62,057 bases of DNA, from IMG/VR virus record IMGVR_UViG_3300011113_000163, positions 1 to 62,057 of that record, one strand, 5' to 3'. This stretch comes from a virus. Both the position numbers and the translations under genes were made by a program. Position 1 is the first letter of the stretch, and every line of letters starts with the position of its first letter. The notes under the pieces were generated by a model. The model saw nothing but the letters and a program-made list of their open reading frames with translations. It did not search any database and had not been told where the DNA came from. Shown here piece by piece: positions 15,204 to 58,668 of the stretch.

Positions 15204-15611
15204 ATGGCATGGCATTCAAAGTCAAATATTCGTGCAAACGCGATTAAATATGGTTATCGTTCAGGATTTGAACATAAAATATCAGAACAATTAGAACAGT
15301 TAGATATCGATCCTAAGTATGAACAAACAGTTGTTAAATATACTATACCAGAACGCCAATCAAAATATACCGTAGATTTTACACTACCTAATGGTATATT
15401 AGTTGAGACAAAAGGCCGATGGATGACAGAAGATCGTAAAAAACATTTACTAGTTAAAGAACAGCATCCGGAATTAGACATACGAATTATATTTCAAAAT
15501 GCAAAATCTAAAATTCGCAAAGGGTCAAAAACTTCTTATGCAGACTTTTGCGATAAGCATGGAATTCTATGGGCAGAAAAAAAGATTCCAGAAAGTTGGC
15601 TAAATACTTGA
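15204..15611 (+). CDS. T7 endonuclease I-type Holliday junction resolvase
   Basis: A 135-residue member of the phage T7 endonuclease I family, which cleaves branched DNA to debranch replicating genomes before packaging. The catalytic set is visible as E23 (SGFEHKI), D58 (YTVDFTLP), E68 and K70 (LVETKGRW). The spacings of 35, 10 and 2 residues are the same as T7 E20, D55, E65 and K67. Length is close to T7 (149). An AAAAGGA site lies before the start and a late element before that. In T4 this job belongs to endonuclease VII (gp49), an unrelated fold, so this would be a functional replacement. It is followed by the primase after a 114-base gap. Confidence 0.9.
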   Translation: MAWHSKSNIRANAIKYGYRSGFEHKISEQLEQLDIDPKYEQTVVKYTIPERQSKYTVDFTLPNGILVETKGRWMTEDRKKHLLVKEQHPELDIRIIFQNAKSKIRKGSKTSYADFCDKHGILWAEKKIPESWLNT

Positions 15612-15725
15612 TCTTATGAGATTTTGTTTATAAATTCATGTAAATAAATTTTTATGAAAGTTATTGAATAAAACATTGTTAGTATGACAATGCTAATTAA
15701 TAATTTTATATTATAATATTAATTA
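15612..15725 (+). other. AT-rich gap before the primase-recombination pair
   Basis: A 114-base gap with no gene and no late element. A 6-bp inverted repeat (CATTGT at 15674-15679, ACAATG at 15687-15692) has no T-tract, so it is not a standard terminator. A TATAAT-like sequence lies in the very AT-rich end (TATATTATAATATTAATTA). Because primase and gp46/47 functions are needed early, an early or middle promoter could lie here, but no convincing -35 element is visible. Confidence 0.3.
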
Positions 15726-16652
15726 ATGAGTAAGTACTCACTTATTTCTTTGTTAGACTCTGTCTTAGGTAAAGGTAAGACTAATACTAATGATAACATT
15801 GCTTATTGTTGCCCATTCTGTCATACCCAAAAGAAAAAGTTAGAAGTTAATCTTATAACTCAATACTGGCATTGTTGGGTTTGTAATGCATCTGGTAGAA
15901 AGTTAAGCGTACTATTTCGTAAGTTAAATGTACAACGAGATAAGATTGCGCAGTTACTTAAGATAGTTGATGAAACTGAATACAAGCCTACAAAGACAAC
16001 TACAGATACACCCGTTGTAGCATTACCAGATGAATATCGTCCATTATGGATTATCGATAAAACATCACCCGAATATAGAAATGCTATTTACTATCTTAAG
16101 AATCGTGGCATTACTATTAAAGATATTCTTAAGTATCGTATCGGGTATTGCAGAAAAGGACCTTACGCTAAAAAAATTATTATTCCGAGTTATGATGCTA
16201 ATGGAAGTTTAAACTACTTTGTAGCTCGAGCATATTACGATTCGGACTTATTTAAACATAAGAATCCTAAAGTGTCTAAAGATATTGTCGGGTTTGAATT
16301 ACAGATCAATTGGACTATGCCCATTATACTAGTAGAAGGCGCTTTTGACGCAATTGCAATCAAACGTAATGCTATTCCGTTATTCGGTAAAACCATTTCA
16401 AACACGCTAAAAAAACGTATTGTAGAAAAGGGAGTAAAGGACATTTATATATGTTTAGATCTAGATGCTCGTAAGCAAGCGTTAGAAGCTGCTGAGTATT
16501 TTATTAGTAACGGTGTAAATGTATACTTTGTAGACTTAACAGATAAAGATCCTAGTAAATTAGGGTTCTTAAAAATAAAAGAATTGATAGACTTAACACC
16601 GCAGTTAACTGCAAATAGATTAATTGAAGAAAAAATATTATGTTTACTATAG
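15726..16652 (+). CDS. 61: DNA primase, T4 gp61-like (zinc finger plus Toprim)
   Basis: A 308-residue primase that makes RNA primers for lagging-strand synthesis, normally together with a gp41-type helicase (not in this window). An N-terminal CHC2-type zinc ribbon is formed by C29-P-F-C32 and C50-W-V-C53. A Toprim domain carries E204-G (LVEGAFDA) and D245-L-D247 (LDLDARK). Length is near T4 gp61 (342). There is no Shine-Dalgarno before the start, only AT-rich sequence. The last 13 bases overlap the start of the recombination nuclease gene, so the two are probably co-translated. No late element precedes the gene, consistent with early or middle expression. Confidence 0.9.
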   Translation: MSKYSLISLLDSVLGKGKTNTNDNIAYCCPFCHTQKKKLEVNLITQYWHCWVCNASGRKLSVLFRKLNVQRDKIAQLLKIVDETEYKPTKTTTDTPVVALPDEYRPLWIIDKTSPEYRNAIYYLKNRGITIKDILKYRIGYCRKGPYAKKIIIPSYDANGSLNYFVARAYYDSDLFKHKNPKVSKDIVGFELQINWTMPIILVEGAFDAIAIKRNAIPLFGKTISNTLKKRIVEKGVKDIYICLDLDARKQALEAAEYFISNGVNVYFVDLTDKDPSKLGFLKIKELIDLTPQLTANRLIEEKILCLL

Positions 16653-19600
16653 ACATTGGATTAGAGCGTATTGATAGAATTTATCATATCGCTGACGTAC
16701 ATGTACGCAACGTTAAAAGGCATGAAGAATACCGCCAGGTATTTAAAAAGTTATATGCTTACATAAAAAAGACAAAAACAAAGAATAGTGTTATCTACGT
16801 AGCTGGTGATATTGTACATGCTAAAACAGATATGTCTCCAGAATTAGTACATGTAGTATCTGATTTTTTTCAAAACTTAGCAGATATTGCACCTACAATT
16901 ATAATCTGCGGAAATCACGATTGTAATCTTAATAACGCGAATCGTTTAGATGCCATTTCCCCTATTGTTAAGGCCCTTAACCACCCTCAATTACATTATC
17001 TTAAAGACAACGGGATATATTGTATATCGGATGTACACTTTAACGTTATGTCTATTTTTAATAAGCCATCTGAATACATTAAAGCTAAGGATTTTGATGG
17101 AAAGTATAAGATTGCTTTACATCACGGGGCGGTTAATTTAGCACAAACTGATATAGGGATGACCTTAAGTAATACGCATGTTACTAACGAATTGTTTGAA
17201 GGACATGATTTAGTATTGTTAGGTGATATACATAAATTACAATTCTTAGATTCTAAAAAGACGATAGCATATCCAGGTAGTTTAATACAACAAAACTATG
17301 GCGAAGCACTACACCATGGTATTTTAGTATGGGACTTAGCTACTAGTACTTCTGAGTTTGTTGAAATTGTTAACGATCATGGATATTATACATTCGAAAT
17401 CGAAAATGGCGTTATACTTAATCCGTCAAATGATGTGCCTAAAAAGCCAAAGTTAAGATTAAAGGTTAAAGATACTGAAACATCTGTATTAAAAACGATT
17501 GTATCAGATTTACGTAAACAATATAAAGTTCAAGAAATTACAGTGCATAAAGTAAATGCATTAAGTAATTACGATCCTAAGCAAAAAGTTAATTTTGGTA
17601 ATATTAGAGACGTGGAATGGCAAAACAATGCTATTACAGATTATTTAAATGATACATATGCGTTAGATGAAGAGTTATTAGATTGTGTTAGGCATATTAA
17701 TCGTACCGTGCACGGTAAATTACCTGAATCAGAAATAACTAGAAATGCTTTATGGACACCTAAGATGTTTGAATTTAGTAACATGTTTAGTTATGGTAAT
17801 GATAATGTTATTGATTTTTCTACATTGAACGGCTCATATGGATTATTTGCTCCTAATGCTTCCGGGAAATCCACATTGTTAGATGCTTTGGCATTTTGTT
17901 GCTTTGATAGATGTAGTCGTACTACAAAAGCTATACACGTATTGAATAATAAACGTAGTACATTTGAATGTAAATTTCAATTTGAATTAGACGGTAAAGA
18001 TTATTTTATACAACGTACTGGAAAGAAAAATAATAAAGGTCATGTTAAAGTTGATGTAGATTTTTGGTATATAAATGAGTCTGGAGAGGAAATATTACTT
18101 AACGGCGACCAACGAGATACTACAAATAAAATTATACGCCAATATTTAGGCTCATATGAAGATTTTGTGTTAACAGCATTATCATTGCAAAGTAATAATA
18201 CTGGCTTTATTGACATGTCACAACGTGAACGTAAAGAGTTACTAACACAATTTTTGGATATCGACGTATTTGAACAACAGTATCAGATAGCTAATGAAGA
18301 GATTAGAGAAACAGCTGCATTAATACGTGAATATAAACGTACTGATCACAGCACGTCATTATCAGAAGCTAGTCAAACAATAACTAATTTAACAAAGTCG
18401 TTAAAAAGTATTACTAAACAAAAAACTGAGTTAGAATCAATGAAAGATGATTTAACTGAAATAGTAATCAATATGACTAAAGAGTTAAAGACGATTGGTA
18501 CTGGCATTGAAAAACCTGATAATATAAAAGCTAAAATCAATATAAAGCTAAGTCAACTAGATTCGTTAAACGATCAGTCTAACGAAATAACGGAACAATT
18601 AGATCAACTTGAAGATAATATTAATAGTATTGTAACCGAACTTGAAGATTACGATCGCGATGCCTTAGATGCTAAAAAGCAAGAGATATTAAAAAACATT
18701 GATACTCATCGCGATTTAACATCACGTGAAAAGTTATTGGAAATGGATATTGCCCATGCGGAAAAAATGGTTTCTAAATTAGAAAAACATCAATGGGATC
18801 CGAATTGTAAATATTGCATGGCTAATCCATGGTTGCAAGATACTAAAAAGGCTAGTGAACGATTACCGTTATTGCAAGAAGAATATAAAGCTTTACAAGC
18901 GGAGATTGAAATTATATGGCCTCAGTGTGATATGTATGACGTTAACAAAGAGTATGTACATTTAGGCGATTTAGAAAGTAGACATGGTAAATTTATTTTA
19001 AAACAATCTGAATTACAACTAAAAGATCAAAAATTAAAATCAGCAATTCAACATGTTAATTCGGAGTTACAAGAATTAGAACGATTGTTAAATGACTCGT
19101 TACAACATATTGATGACCTTAAATTTAATGAAGAAAAAAACGAAGAAATTTTAGAACATCAACAAGAGATTGCCGATTTAACAAACGAAATAAAATCATT
19201 AGAATCAAATATTCTTCAGATATCTGGAAAGATATTAATGGCAGAACAAGCTAAACAAGATGCAGAAAAGGCAATTGCTAGACTTCATGACTTAGAAATA
19301 CAGTATAAAGGATATGAATATTATTTGTTATCTGTTAAACGTGATGGCGTACCGTATAGATTGATAACAAAGGCTCTTCCACAGATCGAAGCTGAAATAA
19401 ATAATATTCTAGCGCAAATTGTAGACTTTTCTATTTTGTTAGAAACTGATGGTAAGAATATTAATGGTTATATTGTATATGATCAAGATAACTTTTGGCC
19501 ATTAGAATTAACATCGGGTATGGAGAAGTTTGTAGCTTCATTAGCGATACGTACTTCGTTAATTAAAATATCTAGTTTACCTAGACCAAACTTTTTAGCA

Positions 19601-19786
19601 ATTGATGAAGGGTTTGGAGTATTAGATTCTGATAATCTTAATAGCATGTTTGCGTTATTTGATTATCTCAAATCACAGTTTGGTTTTATTATGTGTATAT
19701 CACATATCGATGCTATGCGTGATATTGTAGATAAACTTATAGAAATTAAGAAAGATAGCGGATATTCTAAAATAAGTTATTCCTGA
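16640..19786 (+). CDS. Fused Mre11-Rad50 recombination nuclease (gp47-gp46 fusion)
   Basis: One 1048-residue polypeptide carries both subunits of the Mre11-Rad50 (SbcD-SbcC, T4 gp47-gp46) complex, which resects DNA ends for recombination-dependent replication. The N-terminal metallophosphoesterase has all motifs: D19-V-H21, G56-D57, G91-N-H93-D94, H161-H162-G and G195-D-I-H198. The ATPase half has Walker A A404-PNASGKST, a long coiled coil broken by a zinc hook C723-K-Y-C726, the ABC signature L957-TSGM, Walker B with D989-E990 and a late CISHID switch histidine. T4 encodes these as two proteins (about 340 and 560 residues). The reading frame runs unbroken from start to stop, with no internal stop or overlap. 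It overlaps the primase by 13 bases. Confidence 0.95.
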   Translation: MFTIDIGLERIDRIYHIADVHVRNVKRHEEYRQVFKKLYAYIKKTKTKNSVIYVAGDIVHAKTDMSPELVHVVSDFFQNLADIAPTIIICGNHDCNLNNANRLDAISPIVKALNHPQLHYLKDNGIYCISDVHFNVMSIFNKPSEYIKAKDFDGKYKIALHHGAVNLAQTDIGMTLSNTHVTNELFEGHDLVLLGDIHKLQFLDSKKTIAYPGSLIQQNYGEALHHGILVWDLATSTSEFVEIVNDHGYYTFEIENGVILNPSNDVPKKPKLRLKVKDTETSVLKTIVSDLRKQYKVQEITVHKVNALSNYDPKQKVNFGNIRDVEWQNNAITDYLNDTYALDEELLDCVRHINRTVHGKLPESEITRNALWTPKMFEFSNMFSYGNDNVIDFSTLNGSYGLFAPNASGKSTLLDALAFCCFDRCSRTTKAIHVLNNKRSTFECKFQFELDGKDYFIQRTGKKNNKGHVKVDVDFWYINESGEEILLNGDQRDTTNKIIRQYLGSYEDFVLTALSLQSNNTGFIDMSQRERKELLTQFLDIDVFEQQYQIANEEIRETAALIREYKRTDHSTSLSEASQTITNLTKSLKSITKQKTELESMKDDLTEIVINMTKELKTIGTGIEKPDNIKAKINIKLSQLDSLNDQSNEITEQLDQLEDNINSIVTELEDYDRDALDAKKQEILKNIDTHRDLTSREKLLEMDIAHAEKMVSKLEKHQWDPNCKYCMANPWLQDTKKASERLPLLQEEYKALQAEIEIIWPQCDMYDVNKEYVHLGDLESRHGKFILKQSELQLKDQKLKSAIQHVNSELQELERLLNDSLQHIDDLKFNEEKNEEILEHQQEIADLTNEIKSLESNILQISGKILMAEQAKQDAEKAIARLHDLEIQYKGYEYYLLSVKRDGVPYRLITKALPQIEAEINNILAQIVDFSILLETDGKNINGYIVYDQDNFWPLELTSGMEKFVASLAIRTSLIKISSLPRPNFLAIDEGFGVLDSDNLNSMFALFDYLKSQFGFIMCISHIDAMRDIVDKLIEIKKDSGYSKISYS

Positions 19787-26029: not shown

Positions 26030-27703
26030 ATGAGTTTAAGTAATTGGTTAGTTGAACAAATTGTAACGGAAGCTGCTAACATACAGCGTGTTATAGCAGT
26101 ATATCCAGGACGTTTTCAGCCATTTGGACCTCACCACGCAAAAGCGTTTGCTTGGTTACAAGGAAAGTTTGGTGCTGAAAATACATATATTGTAACTAGT
26201 GATAAAGTTAAACCTCCTAAATCTCCGTTTTCATTTGCCGATAAAAAAAATATTATTACTAATTACGGCATAAAAAATCTTGTACAAACTAAACAACCAT
26301 ATACGCCGACAGAATTGTTAAATCAATTCGATCCGGCAACGACTGCAGTTGTTTTTATGGTAGGTCAAAAGGATATGGAAGAAGATCCTAGATTTGCTAT
26401 GATGCCTAAAAAGAGCGGAGATCCGTCATATTTTCAACCATATGCTACAAATAAAAATAAACTGCAGGGATATGGTAAACATGGATATCTAATTGTAGCT
26501 CCTCATGTATCATTACGAGTTACGGGATATGGAGAAATGTCAGGAACAGAATTACGTACTGCATTAAAAAATGCAACCCCAACCACATTTAAAACAATAA
26601 TGGGTTGGTATAATCCAACTGTATATAATATGATTAAAAAAAACTTAACTGAATCTGTTAATAAAAGAATGTTAATAGAGGGAGGTGCTGGTGGCCATAT
26701 GGCACATCCATTTGATATTCCGTCTGTAAAAACCGGTAAAGACTTAGTAAAAGTATTTGTACAAGCTGCTAACTATTTAGAAAAAGGCCCGGCATCTGTT
26801 AAGATAGACGGTGTTAACGCTAGCATTAGATTGGTTAATGTTGATGGGCGTCGTCAGTTTGTAATGGATAGAGGATCTAGCAAACCGTTAGATGTTAAAG
26901 GCGTAACTAAAGATGATCTTGAAGCACGTTTTGGTGCAGGGCATGGCATGATAGTTACCGGAGGTAAAGTATTAGATATATTTAATGATGCTATACCAAA
27001 TATATCAGCTCAACTTAAAACATTAGGCTTATGGAACAATCCTAACATATTGTTCAATATTGAGTATGTAGCTGGTTCTACCAATGTATTATCTTATAAC
27101 AAAAACTTCTTAGCAATACATGGATTGTTAGAAATTGAACAAGTAACACCTAAGCGTCGTGCTACTAAAGAGATAACTTATAATAAGAAATCCATGCAAG
27201 ATTTATTGAACAATTTAGCCCCGACTGCAAATGAATACGGGTTCGAAGTTTTAGGTTCCGTACCGACTACATTGGACAAATATCCAGATTTTCAAGGAGA
27301 ACTTGCTAAAAAGTATGCCATTACTATTAATGGTAAAAAAGTTTCTAAAACATTAAATCAATGGCTATCAACTGCACAAAACGAACGTGATACAACAGTT
27401 AAATTGGCGGATGGAAAAGCAGTTGGAGCTCAATCAAAACAAATTTTATTGGCATTGTCACAAGGCGAAGATGCTGCTAAAATAGTAGCTGATCCAGACG
27501 ATGTAGAAAAAGTAGTTAACGGCTTTGTTATTTATTTGGCTACAATGGAATTAGGTAATGCAGTGTTAGAAGCATTGAGTTCGCCACTAGGACCAGTTAA
27601 AGAACATGAAGGTATTGTAATTAGAGATCCTAAAATATATGATAGTCCATTTAAAATAACTGGTCGATTCATTGTTAAAGGACTTGAATCACAGTTTAGA
27701 TAG
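26030..27703 (+). CDS. Bifunctional nucleotidylyltransferase / ligase-like enzyme with a capsid-targeting-like N terminus
   Basis: A 557-residue fusion. Residues 20-200 are a cytidylyltransferase-superfamily domain of NMN adenylyltransferase type. The first motif is G27-RFQPF-GPHHAK (a variant of GRFQPFHxGH) and the second is M-SGTELR near residue 178. Residues 240-557 have the motifs of covalent nucleotidyltransferases (ATP-dependent RNA/DNA ligases): motif I K258-IDG, III FNIE345YV, IV E527-GIVIRD, and lysines 542 and 550 at the motif V position. Motifs I and IV are 269 residues apart, more than in T4 RNA ligase 2, so an insertion is likely. The first 14 residues (MSLSNWLVEQIVTE, then A) resemble a T4 capsid-targeting peptide with a gp21-type cut site. 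Further LTE-S (E208) and LIE-G (E217) sites lie between the domains. Substrates are unknown. Confidence 0.8.
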   Translation: MSLSNWLVEQIVTEAANIQRVIAVYPGRFQPFGPHHAKAFAWLQGKFGAENTYIVTSDKVKPPKSPFSFADKKNIITNYGIKNLVQTKQPYTPTELLNQFDPATTAVVFMVGQKDMEEDPRFAMMPKKSGDPSYFQPYATNKNKLQGYGKHGYLIVAPHVSLRVTGYGEMSGTELRTALKNATPTTFKTIMGWYNPTVYNMIKKNLTESVNKRMLIEGGAGGHMAHPFDIPSVKTGKDLVKVFVQAANYLEKGPASVKIDGVNASIRLVNVDGRRQFVMDRGSSKPLDVKGVTKDDLEARFGAGHGMIVTGGKVLDIFNDAIPNISAQLKTLGLWNNPNILFNIEYVAGSTNVLSYNKNFLAIHGLLEIEQVTPKRRATKEITYNKKSMQDLLNNLAPTANEYGFEVLGSVPTTLDKYPDFQGELAKKYAITINGKKVSKTLNQWLSTAQNERDTTVKLADGKAVGAQSKQILLALSQGEDAAKIVADPDDVEKVVNGFVIYLATMELGNAVLEALSSPLGPVKEHEGIVIRDPKIYDSPFKITGRFIVKGLESQFR

Positions 27704-57975: not shown

Positions 57976-58668
57976 ATGACCGAATTTACATGTACTGCCT
58001 GTAATCGCAAATTCAATAGTTACAAGAGTCTACAGACCCATAATTCCAGGACACATAAAATAAAAGGAATACAGACCTTTATTAATGTATATCACGGCGG
58101 TATTCATCCAAAATGTAAATGCGGCTGTGATCAAGAACTAAACTATCAGAACGGTAAGTTTGGTGAATACATTCGAGGACATGTAGCCAGAGTTAACGGA
58201 GGCTTTTATACGGAAGAAGGTATCAATAAGTCAACCGAAACTCGTAGGCAGCAGTATAAAGACGGTACACGTATGCAATGGAATGCCGGTAAACAAATGA
58301 CAGATAATTGGCTAGCTACTTATAAAATAGGATGGAAAAAACGTGGCGTAGAATGGAAACAATCGTTACGTGAAACTAGAGCCAAGCAACTCGGATACGA
58401 ATCCTGGCGGCATTGGTATGATACTCTACCAGACCGTAAACGCTATTACTACGATGTATGGAGATTGACAGAAGCCAATGCACACCTCATACCAGGATAT
58501 GATCCAGAACTACGAGGAATTGCCGGTACTGAAGGAGCCTATCAAATTGATCATGTTATTCCAATATCTAAAGGATATACAGAAAGCATGCCTCCGGACA
58601 TTATTGCTTCGCCAGAAAATTTAAGATTTATTTCGTGGCAAGAAAATTTACAAAAGGGAAATCGCTGA
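57976..58668 (+). CDS. Free-standing HNH homing-type endonuclease with C2H2 finger
   Basis: A 230-residue nuclease that probably cuts related genomes lacking the gene and spreads by repair. The N terminus is a C2H2 finger (C6-x2-C9-x12-H22-x4-H27) for DNA binding. A Cys-rich KCKCGCDQEL segment follows, then basic NUMOD-like helices. The HNH core has QID192H193VIPISKGY and the terminal ENLRFISWQENLQKGNR. It interrupts the tail operon between the tube and baseplate genes, a usual site for such elements. The start codon directly follows the 18-bp hairpin. Confidence 0.88.
   Translation: MTEFTCTACNRKFNSYKSLQTHNSRTHKIKGIQTFINVYHGGIHPKCKCGCDQELNYQNGKFGEYIRGHVARVNGGFYTEEGINKSTETRRQQYKDGTRMQWNAGKQMTDNWLATYKIGWKKRGVEWKQSLRETRAKQLGYESWRHWYDTLPDRKRYYYDVWRLTEANAHLIPGYDPELRGIAGTEGAYQIDHVIPISKGYTESMPPDIIASPENLRFISWQENLQKGNR

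Follow-up and report, generated by a model that had tools for sequence, protein, structure and literature searches.

The window, the 62,057-nucleotide stretch of viral DNA analysed here (record IMGVR_UViG_3300011113_000163, positions 1 to 62,057), encodes an Mre11 nuclease and a Rad50 ATPase joined in one 1048-residue protein, a member of the known viral family of Mre11/Rad50 fusions that resemble Mimivirus R555. Motifs and modelled structure point, with a probability of roughly 0.92, to a one-chain phage version of the SbcCD/Mre11-Rad50 end-processing enzyme, which would act as paired chains and would descend from an old joining of genes. Fusions of this kind have been known since 2011 and occur widely in large phages of aquatic habitats and in giant viruses. 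All coordinates without a locus label refer to the window.

Layout of the fused protein

Residues 1-359 make up Mre11, with its phosphoesterase, its cap and the helices that probably bind Rad50, and residues 371-1048 a full Rad50 with its zinc hook. The gene, its parts and its two upstream neighbours are as follows.

15204..15611, + strand: T7 gp3-like endonuclease I, 135 aa (Pfam Phage_endo_I, E 5e-54), a conserved neighbour
15726..16652, + strand: DnaG-like primase, 308 aa, overlapping the fusion start by 13 nt, a conserved neighbour
16640..19786, + strand: fused Mre11-Rad50 gene, ATG start, 1048 aa plus stop, no internal stop
16676..17335, + strand: Mre11 calcineurin-like phosphoesterase domain, about residues 13-232 (Pfam Metallophos, motif alignment, VIA-align)
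17348..17551, + strand: capping domain, about residues 237-304 (AlphaFold secondary structure; within the span matched by 7dog_A, nuclease plus capping domain)
17612..17716, + strand: helices 325-339 and 344-359, putative Rad50-binding helix-loop-helix (predicted structure; identified by position)
17717..17749, + strand: linker between the halves, residues 360-370, 11 residues (predicted structure)
17750..18262, + strand: Rad50 N-lobe, residues 371-541, with Walker A APNASGKS at 17849-17872 (Pfam, predicted structure, motif and fold matches)
18263..18787, + strand: ascending coiled coil, residues 542-716 (predicted structure)
18806..18817, + strand: zinc hook CKYC (C723, C726), both Cys invariant in alignment A1
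18827..19336, + strand: descending coiled coil, residues 730-899 (predicted structure)
19349..19783, + strand: Rad50 C-lobe, residues 904-1048, with SGME at 19514-19525, Walker B/D-loop and H-loop H1022 (motifs, predicted structure, VIA-align)

Reading along the chain, the Mre11 motifs come first (D19-x-H21, G56-D57-x-x-H60, G91-N92-H93-D94, H162 and motif V, G195-D196-I197-H198), and the Rad50 set follows: Walker A at residues 404-411, the Q-loop, the hook C723-x-x-C726, the signature SGME at 959-962, Walker B at D989-E990 and the H-loop at H1022. Two sets of motifs, each in order, within one frame of 1048 codons are not a matter of chance. In motif V (GDIH), Asp stands at the place of Pyrococcus furiosus His206. 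Pfam places Metallophos at residues 13-199 (E 6e-10) and AAA_23 at 380-661 (E 1.3e-8), both above the curated cut-off, and SbcC_Walker_B at 959-1007, below it; the SbcC-like PHROG_77 matches residues 375-1047 (E 1e-56). An earlier, sequence-only reading had described a single protein in which the phosphoesterase motifs precede the ABC-ATPase and zinc-hook motifs without interruption, and the profile matches and motif order bear this out.

The AlphaFold model of the fusion (30-row alignment, mean pLDDT 82.8) resolves into a phosphoesterase, a cap, the two helices within 325-359, the 11-residue linker, the Rad50 N-lobe, two long coils around the hook and the C-lobe; its low pTM of 0.47 means that the placement of the domains relative to one another is not to be read from it. 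Each half resembles its cellular counterpart in the PDB: the ATPase half (model residues 372-1048) matches Escherichia coli SbcC (7yzo_D; VIA-align Z 31.2, 350 aligned, rmsd 3.9); for the nuclease half (model residues 11-303) the match is Staphylococcus aureus SbcD (7dog_A; Z 23.7, 273 aligned, rmsd 3.7). Among viral proteins the top fold matches are full-length fusions from giant viruses and jumbo phages. The best full-length ones are mimivirid fusions at 19-26% identity; Tupanvirus (26%), Harvfovirus and Catovirus, all relatives of Mimivirus, are among the top matches. The same search returned a 1009-aa entry from Listeria phage LMTA-57 and several giant-virus proteins.

Is the fusion genuine?

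A missed stop or a frameshift, introduced in sequencing or assembly, might join two neighbouring genes on paper. The sequence-only reading had marked 17700-17860 as the place where such an error would lie. It is excluded without recourse to reads, because independent contigs from other metagenomes carry a continuous frame over the junction: two at 90-91% amino acid identity (L004 and L005), one at 62% (L007) and more than 100 others, with scans of IMG/VR giving matching frames at 90, 91, 62 and about 50% identity. The collection comprises 144 viral loci, of which 122 are full length, representing 105 distinct full-length proteins; in every one of the 138 loci that span the junction it lies within one ORF. 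Over the range of about 40-91% identity the frame is uninterrupted in independent contigs, and it is so in the complete genome of Microcystis phage Mel-JY01. Selection speaks in the same direction. The dN/dS ratio of the gene stays under 0.08 (0.074 against L004 and 0.063 against L005), which denotes strong purifying selection, and falls to about 0.01-0.03 in the phosphoesterase and ATPase lobes; residues 355-385 show no amino acid change in either comparison. The chance of an artefact is thus practically negligible.

Relatives in phages and other genomes

A tblastn search of a collection of phage records gave full-length relatives in Mel-JY01 (44.8%) and in uncultured phages: LR756508, of 484 kb (37%, interrupted), and LR756501 and LR756503, of 735 kb (26%). 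When the nuclease half of LR756501 was used as query, Tenacibaculum phage PTm1 (one CDS, 1318 aa), phage PTm5 and Sphingomonas phage PAU gp288 (1301 aa) were recovered; pT24 comes from the fold search. The search of phage genomes that had been proposed therefore yields named phages encoding one such protein, Mel-JY01, PTm1 and PAU among them. By terminase and capsid protein, the window groups with Mel-JY01 (63% and 59%), Flavobacterium phage immuto (59.5% and 57%) and LR756508.

A scan of genome contigs yielded one fused candidate (L069), on a contig that is binned with Pelagibacteraceae and is probably viral. The three best full-span bacterial candidates of that scan, from Dorea, Phocaeicola and Chloroflexi, all proved to be split pairs. 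Rhodothermus phage RM378 p100, suggested as a fusion by its size and primase neighbour, is unrelated.

Origin of the fusion

How did the two genes come to be joined? The sequence-only reading had suggested tracing whether a stop between gp47 and gp46 was lost. The route itself exists, as split genes in the same order, adjacent or nearly so, are usual among the T4-, T5- and SPO1-like phages examined. A recent, lineage-specific event of this kind in the window phage nevertheless has a very slim probability. Fused forms span 91% to 23% identity to the window, yet they group together and apart from the split phage and bacterial pairs sampled, so that no recent stop loss is visible; and the analysis turned up no close relative whose Mre11 and Rad50 are separate chains. 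The nearest isolated relatives that lack the fusion, immuto and RM378, both near the window in terminase or capsid comparisons, have no detectable Mre11 or Rad50 either (no match at E <= 1 over the whole record). In immuto (L149, 4403-6107) the gene after the primase, where the window's clade has the fusion, is annotated as an exonuclease and is unrelated.

In the tree, fused rows were set against eight split phage pairs and three bacterial pairs; R555, the 1009-aa Listeria protein and the giant-virus proteins of the fold search lie outside this sample. The fused rows fall on one side of a branch with SH-aLRT values of 99 (combined), 97 (Rad50 heads) and 86 (Mre11 part, not starred). The ATPase signature divides the rows in the same way: SGM occurs in 20/20 uninterrupted fused rows compared and in 0/11 split rows. 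The fused form is SGM followed by E or Q (SGMQ in PAU), against the usual S-x-G-E/Q, and SGLE is found in the re-split rows L023 and L027 described below. The motif V Asp, present in 104 of the 105 distinct fused relatives, is an imperfect marker, since split nucleases of T5-like phages and MAR10 carry it and PAU is without it. The sequence comparisons are consistent with one old fusion among the sampled forms. The window protein would then most likely stem from an old joining of adjacent nuclease and ATPase genes, not from recent stop loss. Separate fusions may have taken place elsewhere, e.g. in Listeria phage LMTA-57 or among the fusions scattered over the 2011 tree (PMC3175470).

Re-split relatives and homing endonucleases

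In four relatives two ORFs encode the Mre11 half, with the break after GDIHK..Q, and the second ORF remains fused to Rad50 (L002:4971-9193, L023:5953-9324, L027:5953-9253 and L059:2952-6211). The N-terminal pieces end in similar peptides, EYEYEELEIDEQQLQSYLNSGW in L059 and EVEEMVVEEDELEKYLNSGW in L002. Similar peptides also open the C-terminal pieces, MNKKITVYKKKP in L059 and MKTYKIRKKSP in L027. Between the Mre11 pieces of L002 lies an ORF of 305 aa whose nuclease domain is TnsA-like and which resembles a homing endonuclease. At the same loop, about residues 200-235 of the fused protein, L011 and L012 have an in-frame insertion of 21 aa, LQEYSCEELVVNESKLTTKKIKHIKP, perhaps the healed scar of a like insertion. 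The gap of about 130 nt in L059 is too short for a group I intron, which is rejected for that reason; no intein-like Cys start was seen. In L058 the frames are broken at two places other than the re-split loop.

Two further loci show related arrangements. An ORF directly after the fused gene at L014:9298-10116 has a weak ROS/MUCR-like N-terminal match, and its C-terminal end is related to the final 65 residues of the Rad50 part; from its sequence it looks like a homing endonuclease carrying a replacement gene end. In the T4-like Escherichia phage SQ17 (L166:4124-4984), a MobE homing endonuclease is annotated between the gp47-like and gp46-like genes. Homing endonucleases that split phage genes or sit between them are known from T4-related phages (PMC2988022).

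Might the fused family be a repeated target of homing endonucleases, with Mre11 re-split in these four relatives? The odds appear about even. If this is true and the products are functional, the re-split forms would be Mre11 nucleases in which two half-domains come together. The literature searched contained no case of fusion followed by fission.

Genome neighbourhood

Among the 83 relatives with enough upstream sequence, the primase lies upstream of the fusion in 80 and endonuclease I in 73 (both genes in 70, primase alone in 10, endonuclease alone in three). Two other ORFs in the window deserve mention. One of 230 aa at 57976-58668, between the tail sheath region and the baseplate hub gene, has a C2H2-like zinc finger, matches HNH and endonuclease VII weakly and is a probable free-standing homing endonuclease. 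Another, of 557 aa at 26030-27703 among the structural genes, has a weak cytidyltransferase match over residues 15-83.

Proposed function

It is reasonable to infer that the fusion fixes stoichiometry and that two chains suffice for M2R2, as the sequence-only reading had suggested. The Mre11 halves of two chains would pair, ATP would close their two Rad50 heads to give the equivalent of M2R2, and the zinc hooks would join. Helices 325-359 may hold the nuclease to the root of the coil, as in SbcCD. Under ATP control the head complex would resect or nick DNA ends and hairpins in the manner of T4 gp46/gp47 and E. coli SbcCD, and the processed ends might feed recombination-dependent replication and repair, a role that fits the neighbouring genes for a primase and a Holliday-junction-type endonuclease I. 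Fusion would guarantee a 1:1 supply and simultaneous delivery of the two activities, with the Mre11 helices tethered at the Rad50 root. It need not change the architecture, since the length of the linker allows the canonical contact; its 11 residues agree with the 9-12 argued to be sufficient for Mre11/Rad50 fusion (PMC3175470).

No biochemistry was found for the phage fusions treated here. Activity may differ from that of SbcCD, because motif V has Asp where a His of the metal site would stand and the ABC signature reads SGME. Could the protein be inactive as a nuclease, or repurposed? In its favour, both changes are near-invariant in the clade. Against it, purifying selection acts on the remaining catalytic motifs, all of them intact; the same Asp occurs in split nucleases of T5-like phages and MAR10, and R555 shows the matching change (PMC3175470). 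Loss or replacement of nuclease function is accordingly given a slim probability, and an active end-processing enzyme is the preferred reading. The hook is likewise retained: of the 105 distinct fused proteins, 101 have a CxxC in that region.

Comparison with known systems

T4 gp47/gp46, T5 D12/D13, the SPO1-like exonuclease pairs and E. coli SbcD/SbcC belong to the same two protein families, and their genes are neighbours in nuclease-ATPase order. Unlike the fusion, they are separate chains, and their signature is S-x-G without Met; the window has a single ORF where T4 has nuclease and ATPase on two chains. The earlier statement that the two are separate in T4 and in cells holds for canonical complexes only, as Yoshida, Claverie and Ogata documented fusions in 2011 in Mimivirus (R555), Bacillus phage 0305phi8-36, plasmids, bacteria and eukaryotes (PMC3175470). 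Nor is the fusion new, given its many relatives in phages and giant viruses.

Of the phage relatives, Mel-JY01 WWT39521.1 is like the window protein over its full length and has the primase upstream, but is annotated merely as 'AAA domain containing protein'. LR756508 encodes a full-length relative, but an inserted ORF interrupts its Mre11 half. PTm1, PTm5, pT24 and PAU gp288 have single proteins of 1301-1318 aa with the same domain order and the SGM signature; they differ in lying on a distant branch and in their longer coils, and PAU retains His in motif V.

Mimivirus R555, known here from PMC3175470, shares with the window protein an N-terminal Mre11 and a C-terminal Rad50 on one chain and the Asp in place of His206, but has 1351 aa with a longer coiled coil, against 1048 aa in the window phage. 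Its homologs are abundant in viral metagenome fractions, and in the GOS/BIOME metagenome they lie on phage-like scaffolds beside a phage primase and a T7 gp3-like endonuclease (PMC3175470), the arrangement found at 15204-16652. With the window, the R555-like sequences reported as abundant in aquatic metagenomes in 2011 gain a full genomic setting; at least in part they represent a clade of large phages with contractile tails that are related to Mel-JY01. A one-chain Mre11-Rad50 could also be convenient for structural biology, because its stoichiometry is fixed; beyond these two points the fusion leaves what is known of such enzymes as it stood with R555.
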